From contig CALLBR010000001.1 of assembly GCA_937998865.1 (NCBI GenBank), positions 1-64,000 on the forward strand: a DNA stretch of 64,000 nucleotides. The letters are read 5' to 3'. Position numbers and translations under genes: made by a program. Under the pieces are notes generated by a model. That model had not been told where the DNA came from. It saw nothing but the letters and a program-made list of their open reading frames with translations, and did no database searches. Source of the DNA: an uncultured bacterium (GTDB lineage: Bacteria; Nitrospirota; Thermodesulfovibrionia; Thermodesulfovibrionales; Thermodesulfovibrionaceae). Each line of letters starts with the position of its first letter. Position 1 is the stretch's first letter. This document shows positions 21,360-26,838 of the stretch, one piece after another.

Positions 21360-22349
21360 TTAAAGAAGGCTTTGTAATTTTTTTAAAAGCCTACAAACTC
21401 TCTCCGCATCAGATTCATCTAAGGAGCCCATTCCACAGGAGGGAGTAAGAATAGATTTTTTCTCTAAAGCTGGAATTTCTCTTGAGAGTTCTTTTATGTT
21501 TGATTTTGCTTTAGTTAAAATTTCATCATCTCCAAGGCCTTTTAGGTCGTCTGTTGTGGGTATAAATCCCCAAGCTATGTACCCACCTCTCTCCTCAATA
21601 AATTTTTTTATCTCATCTTTGTAAATCTTGAATAATTCAAAGAAAAAATAAGCATCGAAACTTAATATGTCCAAATGGTAATTTAGAATTTCTCTCCAAT
21701 CTCCTCTGCCACAACAGTGAAGACCTACAAAAGCACCTACTTGTTTTATGAAGAAAGCTAAATCATTTATCAATCTTGCTGCTTCCTGCTGATCAACAGA
21801 GATATAAGTAGAGGTTCCTATGGCTTGTAAAATAGGTTCGTCAATGAATATGATGACTTCTTTTGAGAATTTTTTAAGAAAATTAATCTGCCATTTAGCC
21901 TTAGCTTTTAGATGTAGTAGACAAACTTCTCTATATGTTTCGTTAAAATAAACAGGTTTTCCTTCTTCATCCCGCAAAGAGAGTGTAAAGGTCAAAGGAC
22001 CAGTAATCTGTCCTTTAAAGATGTCAACTTCTTTAATTTTCAATAATTCAGTTATTTTATGAAGGGCAACAGCAAAATCTTCACTAATAGGGCTTTCTTC
22101 ATCTTCTCTATAATTAGAAAGCCAGTTCATTATGTTTTCTTCATCGTATTTAATGTATATCTTATCTTCTTCCACTACAACTCCTGGTAAGCCCTCAGAA
22201 AATTGAGGGATCATTAATTCTCTGAAGGAAATTTTTGGCATCTGAGGCCAAAAGGGAATATCAAAATACTTTAAGACCATCTCACAAGCAGCATAGGGAT
22301 CTAATTGTGGCATACTTCCTATGCCAGTAATACTGTAAGGCTTTATCAC
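21360..22349 (-). CDS. MetE/UROD-superfamily protein (methionine synthase II-like), GTG start
   Basis: 329 residues beginning MIKPYSITGIGSMPQLDP, the start typical of stand-alone MetE-like and uroporphyrinogen-decarboxylase-like proteins. GQITGPLTFTLSL, FIDEPIL, GLHCCGRGDW and LTPSCGMGS line up with the cobalamin-independent methionine synthase C-terminal barrel: His-Cys and a final Cys are candidate zinc ligands. It lacks the long N-terminal half of MetE. It may transfer methyl groups to thiols from an unknown donor. GTG start with GGAG 8 nt upstream. Confidence 0.72.
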   Translation of the reverse strand: MIKPYSITGIGSMPQLDPYAACEMVLKYFDIPFWPQMPKISFRELMIPQFSEGLPGVVVEEDKIYIKYDEENIMNWLSNYREDEESPISEDFAVALHKITELLKIKEVDIFKGQITGPLTFTLSLRDEEGKPVYFNETYREVCLLHLKAKAKWQINFLKKFSKEVIIFIDEPILQAIGTSTYISVDQQEAARLINDLAFFIKQVGAFVGLHCCGRGDWREILNYHLDILSFDAYFFFELFKIYKDEIKKFIEERGGYIAWGFIPTTDDLKGLGDDEILTKAKSNIKELSREIPALEKKSILTPSCGMGSLDESDAERVCRLLKKLQSLL

Positions 22350-22354
22350 TTAAA

Positions 22355-22570
22355 TCACTCCTTTTGGCTAAGTTTTTTTAAAATTTCAGGATATTCTTTT
22401 GCAAAATCAGAGAAATTCCTTTTTAAAAAAAGTTTTATTGCCTTTATTTCTAAGGTTTGTTCATTAAATTTCTTCAATTCCCTTTCTATAATTAGAAGCT
22501 TTTCAGAAATAACCTTTATTTCTGCTTCTAATAAGGCAAGATGTTCTTTTAATTCCATTAGTTCTTTCAT
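22355..22570 (-). CDS. Small coiled-coil protein, unknown function
   Basis: 71 residues, nearly all predicted helix by eye: leucine/isoleucine heptads from residue 3 to about 45 (ELKEHLALLEAEIKVISEKLLIIERELKKF), then a basic segment (KLFLKRNFSDFAKEYPEI). No recognised domain. Shine-Dalgarno GAGGAA precedes the ATG, and the gene sits 5 nt before the MetE-like gene and 11 nt after the bS22-like gene, which supports it being expressed. Confidence 0.65.
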   Translation of the reverse strand: MKELMELKEHLALLEAEIKVISEKLLIIERELKKFNEQTLEIKAIKLFLKRNFSDFAKEYPEILKKLSQKE

Positions 22571-22581
22571 AAAAGCTTCCT

Positions 22582-22677
22582 CTATTTATTTCTTCTTAAT
22601 GCTCTCATTTTTTTGCGAAGCTTTCTGTATTTGTGTTTCTTAATCTTCTTCTTTCTCCACTTTAGAACACTTCCCAC
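22582..22677 (-). CDS. AURKAIP1/COX24-like basic micro-protein (bS22/mS38 type), GTG start
   Basis: 31 residues, MGSVLKWRKKKIKKHKYRK then LRKKMRALRRNK. The W/KRRKKM-x-KHK-x-RK-x-R-K-x-R pattern is that of the COX24/AURKAIP1 domain, found in mitochondrial mS38 and in the small ribosomal protein bS22 of some bacteria, where it sits in the small-subunit rRNA. More than half of the residues are Lys or Arg. The GTG start directly abuts the TAG of the upstream gene, with AAAGGAGGTG 7 nt before. Too short for most gene finders. Confidence 0.78.
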   Translation of the reverse strand: MGSVLKWRKKKIKKHKYRKLRKKMRALRRNK

Positions 22678-25600
22678 CTATTTCACCTCCTTTGCTTTGA
22701 GTGTTTCCATGAAGGCTTCTATCCAAAGCTCATTTATTGTTGAATTTAATCCGTCAAAGGCAATAGATATTACAGGTATATTATAATCTCTTTGCACAAA
22801 TCTTAACAAAGCTGATACAATTGCACCGGGCATACAGCCAAAAGGCATTGTATTTATTATTCCTTTTACGCCTTTCTTTATAAAGTCAACACTCTTTCCG
22901 ATGCTCAAAATTGTCTCTCCTTCAAAACTATCTGGTATGTAAGGTGAAGCAAATTTAAACAATTCTTTTGTGGAAGGCTCCTGAAGAAATTTTAAAGTTC
23001 CTTTGAAAAAGGATGAAAAATTTTTCTCCACCTTCCACTGAAAAAATTTATTTATAAGAATTTTTATAATAGCAGATTTATCCTTTTTTATCAAGGCCTT
23101 TCTTAAGGCAATTGTATTTACATAGTGAATCCATTCTTCCAGGGGGGTAAGATATACCTCTGCTCCTAAGCTTTCAAGTTTTTTAATAAGCTCTTCATTA
23201 GAAAAATTGTGAGATCTTACAAAAATCTCTCCCACAATTCCTATTAGTGGTTTTTTATCTCTGTATCTTGGAATTTCTTCAAAGTCTTTTTTTATTCTTT
23301 TTAGTAAAGCCTCAAAATTGGCATTTCTTGCCTTAAGTGTATCATGAATTTTAACTAAATATTCTTGATAGACAGAGTCTGTCTGCCCCTTGTTTTTCTC
23401 ATAGGGCCTTGTTTGATGTAAAAATTTAGTCAAAAGGCTATAGGCGATAATTCCCTGCCATGCCCTGAGAGAAAACTCTCCACCTCCTATGTTTAAATCC
23501 TTATAAAACTGGGCATCTTGCTGAGGAGAATAAACAGGGATGTTTTCAAAACCTAATTTTTGAAGCATCATTCTATGGGAGATGTTATATTGTCCAAATC
23601 TACAAGGACCAGCACCAGAAGGCATAAAAAATGCTGTTTTTTCAGGATTAAAATCAGAGGAATGAATGACCTTAAGCATATCTCCTAGGGTTATTACATA
23701 AGGGAAACATTCTCCTCCTGAAACATATTTTCTTCCTAACTCAAGAGATTCTTTGTCTGAGGGAGGCATCACTTCAGCGTCAATTCCACAGTAATTAAAA
23801 GCAGCTTTCAGCGCAAAAGCATGGTCAGACATTCTTGGGATGTAAATAATTCTTTTAGATAAATCAGAACAAATATTTTTAATGAAAGGTATAAAAGTTT
23901 TACCAAAACTTTCTCTCCCTTGCCTTCCCTCTAAGCTATCGATAAAGGCTTCCAATCTAGTGACTAAACCAGCATCTGCACTGTGTTCATCAATCTCAAC
24001 TACTAAATAGGGATAATCTTTCATTTCTTCTTTGAAGTAGTTAATTATAAAAGAGTCTGGGCCACAGGAGAAATTTGTTATGAAAATAGGATAAATATTA
24101 CCCAACTTTTTTACCAATCTGGAAGCTTTTATTATTCTCTGGCCAGAGCGCCAGTATAGATTATTCCATTCTCCCTTTATACTTATTTTGTCCAAAGGAA
24201 GCATGTCCATTGGTATTGGTAAGACATTTAGTCTTGTAAGTTTGCCTGAAATATCAAGGCTTACTGAATTATCAAAAGAGTTATAGGCTCTACCTAAAAT
24301 AACTACAGTAGCTTTTTGATTGAATTTTCTACCTTGTAAATTTTCAAGGAAATTGATTCCTTCTCTTTGTAGAGATTTAATAAATTTTGCCTGATTTTCT
24401 TTTGCAAGACTTATTTTATATTCTAAATTTTTGATTTTTGCGATATTTTTAAAGCTTTCTTTGATTTCATTTATTAAATATTTAAGACCTCTGGAATAAT
24501 CAATTCTTGGAGTAACAATTTTAATTTCTCTGAAGAGTTCTTTGCTTACATAGGGAATTGTTTGCACAAGAGGGCAAGCAAGTCCTCTTTCATATTCATC
24601 AAAAATATTAAGATTCATAAAGCTCGGAAGAAAAATAAGATCAACTCCTTTTTCAATTAGCTCTGCTATATGTCCATAGGCTACTTTTAATGGAAAACAA
24701 GCCTCGGAAGGATTTTTTTCAATGCCTTTGTTAATTATGGCCTTATTTGTCTTTCCAGAGATCTCAACCCTAAAACCAAGTTCCCAAAGAAGGGTGCTCC
24801 AAAAAGGAAGTTGATCATGAAAGAAGAAGATTAAAGGTATTCCAATGGTAGGAAGATTTTTATCCTTGAATCTTTCAGCATACTCATTATGTGCTTTCCA
24901 TAAAAGTTCCTCTCGAATTTTTAGTGGATCAGGAAGTTTTGCTTTATGGGATTCCTTTTCATATTTTTCGCATCTTCCACCATAAAAAAGATATTTTTCT
25001 TCCTTTTCTAATCTAATTTTGTTTATTTCACAATGATTTGGACAGCCTTTACACTCAAAGGAGGAGATACTGTAGGAGGCATCTTTAATAGAGAAGCCTT
25101 TAAATTTGCTGGCTTTTCCGTTTTTCATAAAATCTTTTGCCAGAAGTGCTGCACCTATAGCTCCCATGACTTCGTGATGAGGAGGCACAATAAGAGTTAT
25201 ATCTCTGCTTAGTTTGTTTCTTAGATGATTTTCAAAAGCTGAAACTACAGCTTTGTTGAAGGCTACACCACCTTGGAAAAATACTCTTTTTCCAATTGAT
25301 TTTCCAGCAACTACGCGATTTATATAATTTTCTACAATGCTGTAACATAATCCTGCGATGATATCTTCTTTTTTTGCCCCCTTATGAAGATTTATTACTA
25401 AAGAATTCTCCATAAAAACAGTGCATCTTTCTCCAAGTCTACAAGGACTTTGGGAAGAAAAAGCAAGCCTTTGAAACTCACTTAGACTTACCCCCAATTT
25501 ATCTGCCTGTTCTTCAATAAAAGAACCTGTGCCTGCTGCACAAGCTTTATTCATTTCAAAGTCTACAACTTTTCCATCTTTAAGCCTTATATATTTAGAG

Positions 25601-26838
25601 TCCTGTCCGCCTATTTCAAAGATTGTATCAATGCTACTGTCAAAATGGATAGCACCACGAGCATGGGCTGTAATTTCGTTTTTTACTATGTCAGCTCCTA
25701 CAAAATCACCAATCATATAGCGGCCTGATCCTGTAATACCTACGCCTTTAATTTTAATCCTTGGAAATTCTTCATTTAATTCCTTTAGCCCCTTTTTAAT
25801 AGCATCAATAGGTTTTCCAGCGGTGGGAAGATATTTTTTTGCTATAAGATTGGCTTGTTCATCTATTAGAACAAGATTTGTGCTAACTGAACCTACGTCA
25901 ATACCAAGATAAGCCTCTATTTCTCTATCTTTTAATAAAGATAATTCATAGGGAAAATCATCTGTGCTTTGCACTTCCCCAAGAGGAGGAAGTCCATACT
26001 CAATTTCTGCTTTTATGGTTAGGAGTTTTTCAACAATCTCCTCAGTAAGATAGATATCCTCCTTTTGAGCCTTGATGGCTGCTCCTATTGCTCCTGTTAC
26101 TTCAAAATGCTCAGGGATAAGAATTTCTTCAAGGTTTAAAACCTCTTTAAAGGCTCTTACCATTCCTTTATTTGCTGCAACTCCTCCTTGAAAAGCAACA
26201 ACTCTCTCAACAGGTCGTCCCTTAAACATTGTAGCTTTATAGTTTCTTGCCAGGGCAAAGCAAAGTCCTGAAATAATATCCTCAAGGGGAGTACCTATTT
26301 GCTGAAGATGAATCATGTCAGACTTGGCAAAAACACTACATCTTCCAGCAATTTTTGAGGGTTTCTTTGAAACTGTAGCAAGTCTGCTAAACTCTTCAAT
26401 ACTAAGTCCAAGGCGTTCAGCTTGCTGTTGGAGGAAAGAACCAGTGCCTGCTGCACAGATACTATTAAGGGAAAAATCCTTTATTCTTCCTCCTTTGTCA
26501 AGGAATATAAGCTTAGAGTCCTCTCCTCCAATTTCAATAATGGTTCTTACTGCAGGATAAAACCTAGCTGTTGCTGTTGCTTGTGATACAATTTCGTTTA
26601 CATAATGACATTTTACTGTCTTTGCAATAAATCTACCAGATACCCCTGTAAAACATATTTTTAGTTTCCCAAAACGGGTAAGGACTTCCTTTAGTATTTT
26701 GGAGACAACTTCTGCTGGCTTTCCAATATGTTTAAGATAGATCTTTTCAATGACTTTGGTATTATTATCTATTATGGCTATTTTTGCCGTTTCACTTCCC
26801 ACATCTATTCCAAGGGAATATTTAGAACCCATATTCAT
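22678..26838 (-). CDS. Giant fused acyl-CoA dehydratase activase-type protein (2x BadF ATPase + DUF2229 + HgdB-like)
   Basis: 1386 residues. Two ASKHA ATPase modules in tandem (about 5-260 and 315-575), each with YSLGIDVGSETAK or YLGIDVGSVSTN, GGEDSKLIF/GGQDSKYIR, and a cluster-binding CAAGTGSF...GRCSVF/GERCTVF cysteine pair. A cysteine-rich linker follows (ECKGCPNHC, GGRCEKYE), then a DUF2229 region (about 660-880) and an HgdB/FldB-like C-terminal half with NFSCGPDS, GGECFPYV and SGAGPCRFGQY. Family knowledge: activases use ATP to inject electrons into dehydratases or benzoyl-CoA reductases. Here activator and acceptor-like parts are fused; the substrate is unknown. Overlaps the ubiD end by 17 nt. 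Confidence 0.85.
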   Translation of the reverse strand: MNMGSKYSLGIDVGSETAKIAIIDNNTKVIEKIYLKHIGKPAEVVSKILKEVLTRFGKLKICFTGVSGRFIAKTVKCHYVNEIVSQATATARFYPAVRTIIEIGGEDSKLIFLDKGGRIKDFSLNSICAAGTGSFLQQQAERLGLSIEEFSRLATVSKKPSKIAGRCSVFAKSDMIHLQQIGTPLEDIISGLCFALARNYKATMFKGRPVERVVAFQGGVAANKGMVRAFKEVLNLEEILIPEHFEVTGAIGAAIKAQKEDIYLTEEIVEKLLTIKAEIEYGLPPLGEVQSTDDFPYELSLLKDREIEAYLGIDVGSVSTNLVLIDEQANLIAKKYLPTAGKPIDAIKKGLKELNEEFPRIKIKGVGITGSGRYMIGDFVGADIVKNEITAHARGAIHFDSSIDTIFEIGGQDSKYIRLKDGKVVDFEMNKACAAGTGSFIEEQADKLGVSLSEFQRLAFSSQSPCRLGERCTVFMENSLVINLHKGAKKEDIIAGLCYSIVENYINRVVAGKSIGKRVFFQGGVAFNKAVVSAFENHLRNKLSRDITLIVPPHHEVMGAIGAALLAKDFMKNGKASKFKGFSIKDASYSISSFECKGCPNHCEINKIRLEKEEKYLFYGGRCEKYEKESHKAKLPDPLKIREELLWKAHNEYAERFKDKNLPTIGIPLIFFFHDQLPFWSTLLWELGFRVEISGKTNKAIINKGIEKNPSEACFPLKVAYGHIAELIEKGVDLIFLPSFMNLNIFDEYERGLACPLVQTIPYVSKELFREIKIVTPRIDYSRGLKYLINEIKESFKNIAKIKNLEYKISLAKENQAKFIKSLQREGINFLENLQGRKFNQKATVVILGRAYNSFDNSVSLDISGKLTRLNVLPIPMDMLPLDKISIKGEWNNLYWRSGQRIIKASRLVKKLGNIYPIFITNFSCGPDSFIINYFKEEMKDYPYLVVEIDEHSADAGLVTRLEAFIDSLEGRQGRESFGKTFIPFIKNICSDLSKRIIYIPRMSDHAFALKAAFNYCGIDAEVMPPSDKESLELGRKYVSGGECFPYVITLGDMLKVIHSSDFNPEKTAFFMPSGAGPCRFGQYNISHRMMLQKLGFENIPVYSPQQDAQFYKDLNIGGGEFSLRAWQGIIAYSLLTKFLHQTRPYEKNKGQTDSVYQEYLVKIHDTLKARNANFEALLKRIKKDFEEIPRYRDKKPLIGIVGEIFVRSHNFSNEELIKKLESLGAEVYLTPLEEWIHYVNTIALRKALIKKDKSAIIKILINKFFQWKVEKNFSSFFKGTLKFLQEPSTKELFKFASPYIPDSFEGETILSIGKSVDFIKKGVKGIINTMPFGCMPGAIVSALLRFVQRDYNIPVISIAFDGLNSTINELWIEAFMETLKAKEVK

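Follow-up and report, generated by a model that had tools for sequence, protein, structure and literature searches.

A GTG-started gene for a probable ribosomal protein bS22 in a Nitrospirota genome

Described bS22 proteins and the candidate gene

The ribosomal protein bS22 of Mycobacterium smegmatis and Cutibacterium acnes has 33 residues, begins with MGSV and is rich in lysine and arginine. In solved structures, as described in PMC10618245 and PMC10085706, bS22 is helical with a bend and lies in a pocket of the 16S rRNA made up of h2, h27, h44 and h45, with additional contacts to 23S rRNA. Mycobacteria, where bS22 is present, are said to lack bS21 (PMC7470450). Outside actinobacteria, bS22 of Borrelia burgdorferi was observed by cryo-EM, whereas mass spectrometry in that study did not detect it. 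According to the same paper, its short gene was not annotated and starts with GUG, 61% of its residues are K/R, bS21 is also present, and bS22 was expected by the authors in other species (PMC10618245). The Flavobacterium johnsoniae bS22 is cited in PMC10618245 and PMC10085706; elsewhere, PMC10085706 terms bS22 "Actinobacterium-specific". The related mS38 (AURKAIP1, COX24) is a longer mitochondrial protein, and in yeast without it h44 and the decoding centre are described as affected (PMC6582356). The first-pass annotation of the DNA studied here presented a bS22 outside actinobacteria and mitochondria as an extension of the range of the family. As a novelty this does not stand, given that the Borrelia and Flavobacterium proteins have been published (PMC10618245, PMC10085706). 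Our literature search, covering mostly sources outside subscription journals, retrieved no bS22 report for Nitrospirota and no survey of bS22 across phyla.

The analysed window is the whole 64,000-nucleotide stretch from contig CALLBR010000001.1. The bS22-like gene occupies positions 22582..22677 on the minus strand, with a GTG start at 22677-22675 and a TAG stop at 22584-22582, and encodes the 31-residue peptide MGSVLKWRKKKIKKHKYRKLRKKMRALRRNK, in which 17 of 31 residues are K/R. The plus-strand frame from 22582 is interrupted by stop codons. A GTG-started gene for a highly basic 31-residue peptide with the COX24/AURKAIP1 pattern had been proposed here by the first-pass annotation with the strand unstated; both the gene and the pattern are confirmed by the data below.

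The peptide shares the MGSV start and the K/R-richness with the M. smegmatis and C. acnes proteins, and 30 of its 31 residues are aligned with them. It differs from them in length (31 instead of 33 residues) and in the basic stretches, which read KKRRKR...KKKH in the two actinobacterial proteins and KWRKKK...KHKY here. The Borrelia gene resembles it in being short, GUG-started, found outside actinobacteria and accompanied by bS21, and in its highly basic product (61% K/R there, 17 of 31 residues here). The peptide shares a Pfam domain with mS38, from which it differs in consisting of that domain alone.

Coding evidence, family assignment and distribution

Codon positions were compared among 13 loci from the same genus, the window locus included. 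Of the 30 codons, 22 vary at the third position, compared with four at the first and four at the second. Over the 78 pairs of these loci, the mean pN is 0.023, the mean pS is 0.560, and pN/pS equals 0.041. The protein is under purifying selection, and the gene evolves as a coding one. In the 30 loci read from the order Thermodesulfovibrionales, the length from the aligned start is 30 to 32 residues. A scan of positions 22300-22800 for promoters and terminators found none and was uninformative.

The profile search that the first-pass annotation had proposed as a check yielded a match to PF08213 (COX24_C) with 41.4 bits against a gathering cut-off of 23 (E = 1.3e-10, profile positions 1-30 of 33). 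It is the only match at E ≤ 0.001 in the 1.75-Mb genome to which the window belongs. The NCBIfam equivalog model NF047430 (bS22) covers residues 1-31 of 31 with 32.7 bits (E 5.7e-8), 1.3 below its cut-off of 34, so that the strict NCBI equivalog label does not formally apply; the functional reading is unaffected. All 26 members of a broader profile, A2, match NF047430 at E up to 0.01.

A profile built from 20 relatives (A1) was searched against PDB sequences. It matched chains named bS22 at E 2.2e-9 (32nj, 5o61 and others) and 4.3e-9 (8crx and others), as well as several mS38 chains from solved ribosomes, among them a 199-residue AURKAIP1 chain at 1.8e-5. Based on entry codes, we take the former bS22 chains to be of the M. 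smegmatis type and the latter to be from C. acnes, and the mS38 chain at 1.8e-5 is presumably of the human type. Of the 19 PDB sequences matched at E up to 10, none could be identified as Borrelia or Flavobacterium bS22 from the entry codes, which were available for some of them; thus the sequence similarity to the Borrelia protein is weak or was undetected. The peptide is homologous to bS22 chains resolved in 30S subunits and, like bS22, is free-standing, falls in the range of about 31–33 residues and has one gene per genome. It resembles bS22 and belongs to the COX24_C family; judging from these similarities, it probably works like bS22.

Since a basic peptide may score against a profile of similar composition, a chance ORF with a K/R bias was considered as a rival reading. 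An HMM was built from 52 distinct sequences, all of them from outside Nitrospirota and taken from loci in the phyla of a Syntrophus MAG, a Chloroflexi MAG and an Actinobacteria MAG. It scores the window peptide at 44.9 bits, whereas 10,000 shuffles of the peptide reach at most 14.7. Together with the pN/pS of 0.041 and the order-wide conservation described below, this refutes a chance match, whose probability we regard as negligible.

Within the order, 37 of the 41 genomes (the window's own included) have a PF08213 match, with 20 of 20 genera represented. Three of the four genomes without it are 56–68% complete; the fourth, G039, is listed as 100% complete and has no match even with profile A2, so that bS22 either is not indispensable in the order or escaped detection in this genome. 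In Nitrospirota as a whole, matches at E ≤ 0.001 were obtained in 346 of 395 genomes (344 above the family cut-off), and in good assemblies, in 297 of 324. The 20 negatives listed among the 49 were searched again with A2. Five of them give E values of 2.9e-6 or lower, in two cases with an alignment that crosses a stop codon; hence the Pfam model overlooks some true members. Fourteen, G039 included, have no match at all, and one has a chance-level match (0.63); six genomes from families f24-f27, among these 20, gave nothing better than E 0.63. Nearly all Nitrospirota genomes listed contain one PF08213 match, with two in G090.

In the other three phyla, where each sample counts in a centre genome picked for having bS22, PF08213 was found in 48 of 148 genomes (Syntrophus-MAG phylum, 47 above the cut-off), 30 of 151 (Chloroflexi-MAG phylum, all 30 above) and 74 of 149 (Actinobacteria-MAG phylum, 67 above). 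Of 14 control genomes, only that of Corynebacterium glutamicum has a match. These tallies point to a common occurrence of bS22 among bacteria, and together with the Borrelia and Flavobacterium papers they rule out a range restricted to Actinobacteria. In the Anaerolineae MAG G403, two contigs carry bS22-like genes that differ from each other (L057 and L086; L123, L124); they may be two copies or stem from a mixed assembly.

The protein bS21 is encoded in 40 of the 41 genomes of the order, the exception (G003) being 56% complete. Two bS21 matches are present in 15 of the 41 (G005, G016, G018, G019, G021, G024, G025, G027, G031-G033 and G035-G038). Unlike the mycobacteria, the window genome encodes bS21; therefore bS22 is no stand-in for a missing bS21 here, and its role as a bS21 replacement in this lineage is ruled out.

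Translation start and gene neighbourhood

The Shine-Dalgarno-like sequence AAAGGAGGTGA (22683..22693, minus strand) lies within the final codons of the activase gene, five bases 5' of the GTG. It is an 11-base match to the canonical anti-Shine-Dalgarno complement. The window has 62 further predicted genes of at least 90 aa, with starts picked by a simple rule; their best match has 10 bases, and only four of them start with GTG. A strong Shine-Dalgarno and direct abutment to the TAG of the activase gene had both been noted in the first-pass annotation, and both hold: the activase stop (22680-22678) adjoins the GTG with 0 bases between.

Within the order, 29 of the 30 loci begin with GTG and the remaining one with ATG; 19 of the 30 have Shine-Dalgarno matches of 11–12 bases. 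The 30 best-scoring Nitrospirota loci all have ATG, with matches of 3–5 bases. The combination of GTG with a long Shine-Dalgarno is thus a feature of the lineage. For the tally of aligned first codons, loci scoring at least 50 were used and the E. coli locus L117 (score 18) was dropped; the counts come from best-scoring loci of related genomes and are not independent. We obtained 23 ATG, 5 TTG and 1 CTG in the Syntrophus-MAG phylum, 4 ATG, 8 GTG and 7 TTG in the Chloroflexi-MAG phylum, 11 ATG, 7 GTG and 2 TTG in the Actinobacteria-MAG phylum, and 7 ATG in an additional set whose genomes are repeated from other sets. The 56 named loci (40 ATG, 14 GTG, 2 TTG) do not enter the tally, as one of the two patterns used to search for them began with M. 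A universal non-ATG start of bS22 is ruled out by the ATG in 30 of 30 best-scoring Nitrospirota loci and in others.

A strong Shine-Dalgarno compensating for a weak start codon was considered as a general rule and rejected. It fits the Syntrophus-MAG set, where the mean match is 10.6 bases for TTG (n=5), 5.4 for ATG (n=23) and 4.0 for CTG (n=1). It fails in the Chloroflexi-MAG set (GTG 4.4, TTG 4.1, ATG 4.5) and barely fits the Actinobacteria-MAG set (GTG 4.7, n=7; TTG 7.0, n=2; ATG 4.4, n=11). Feedback control of bS22 initiation is possible. A search with RF00177 matched no 16S rRNA in the window genome, G010 and G013, and the 16S 3' end was matched neither in the window genome (up to 3 mismatches) nor in six genomes (exact search). 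G010 and G013 are single-contig genomes listed as 99% complete, so that rRNA is probably withheld from the sequence collection.

The gene directly upstream (22678..26838, minus strand) encodes an acyl-CoA dehydratase activase-type protein of 1386 residues (PF01869, PF09989, PF06050; TIGR00241) with a BadF/BcrA-type ATPase domain in two stretches, DUF2229 and a 2-hydroxyglutaryl-CoA dehydratase D-type region. In 29 of the 30 loci of the order (the exception is L017), an activase gene precedes bS22 in the same orientation, as it does in 27 of the 56 named loci; at least six of these 56 come from the same genomes as loci of the order set. It was not found in the flanks read, about 1.5 kb on each side, of the high-scoring Nitrospirota loci (0/30) and of the loci of the Syntrophus-MAG (0/29), Chloroflexi-MAG (0/19) and Actinobacteria-MAG (0/20) phyla. 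Only 11 of the 56 named loci (three of these being repeated genomes) have no bases between the activase and bS22 genes, and in the others the distance varies from −17 to 1087 bases; hence exact abutment is confined to some relatives.

Next downstream on the minus strand, a small conserved protein of 71 residues is encoded at 22355..22570. It has no Pfam family above the cut-off, appears coiled-coil-like by eye, and is found beside bS22 in 22 of the 30 loci of the order and in 8 of the 56 named loci. It is followed by a gene for a methionine-synthase-like protein of 329 residues (21360-22349, minus strand), whose NCBIfam score of 33.5 is far below the cut-off of 258; such a gene is located near bS22 in 19 of the 30 loci of the order.

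Proposed role and alternative readings

AlphaFold predicts one continuous helix for residues 2-30 (mean pLDDT 92.8, pTM 0.46); the model is consistent with the helical bS22 of the literature, for which a bend is also described. We conclude, with a probability of about 0.93, that the product is bS22, a member of the COX24_C/mS38 family and of the small ribosomal subunit. Its translation probably begins at the GUG, which has a near-perfect Shine-Dalgarno at the 3' end of the activase gene. By homology, the basic helix would enter the 16S rRNA pocket of h2, h27, h44 and h45 and would add a contact to 23S rRNA. Bound there, it may stabilise h44 at its upper end, close to the decoding centre. Ordinary bS22 packing against the 16S helices h44/h45 is the most likely arrangement by analogy with the known proteins.

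Two other roles for a translated peptide were weighed against this reading. As the ORF abuts the activase gene and precedes conserved small and metabolic genes, it could be a leader peptide or translational-coupling element, whose translation rather than product tunes the downstream 71-residue and methionine-synthase-like genes. In that case it is hard to see why the amino acids are constrained while synonymous sites vary freely. The activase was not found in the 1.5-kb flanks of the high-scoring Nitrospirota loci or of the loci from the three other phyla, and a constant peptide in a changing gene context argues against a leader role. Moreover, members of the family are ribosomal proteins in solved structures, and we consider a leader extremely unlikely.

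A 31-mer with 17 K/R residues could also bind other nucleic acids or act as a free cationic antimicrobial peptide independently of the ribosome; the C. acnes bS22 peptide is reported in PMC10085706 to inhibit E. coli and staphylococci in disk assays. That active peptide is, however, itself a ribosomal protein, and family members have been solved inside ribosomes. No signal peptide is apparent by eye in the window peptide, and the single match in nearly all Nitrospirota genomes listed also speaks against a free peptide, which we find very unlikely.

A broader variant of the bS22 reading holds that the protein is no actinobacterial peculiarity but old and widespread, occurring in roughly nine-tenths of Nitrospirota genomes and patchily lost elsewhere, and at the same time that the near-invariant GUG and near-maximal Shine-Dalgarno of the order, beside an unrelated activase, form a conserved regulatory device. 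An example would be a protein that, bound beside the anti-Shine-Dalgarno end of 16S rRNA, feeds back on its own synthesis. Taken as a whole, this combination is unlikely.

The assignment to bS22 is a well-supported, ordinary addition to a known ribosomal protein family and carries little surprise. With it, Nitrospirota gain a clear bS22 candidate, encoded by another very short GTG-started gene of the family, comparable to the Borrelia gene that was initially overlooked. Since bS22 and bS21 are both encoded in this lineage, the two proteins are not alternatives to each other.
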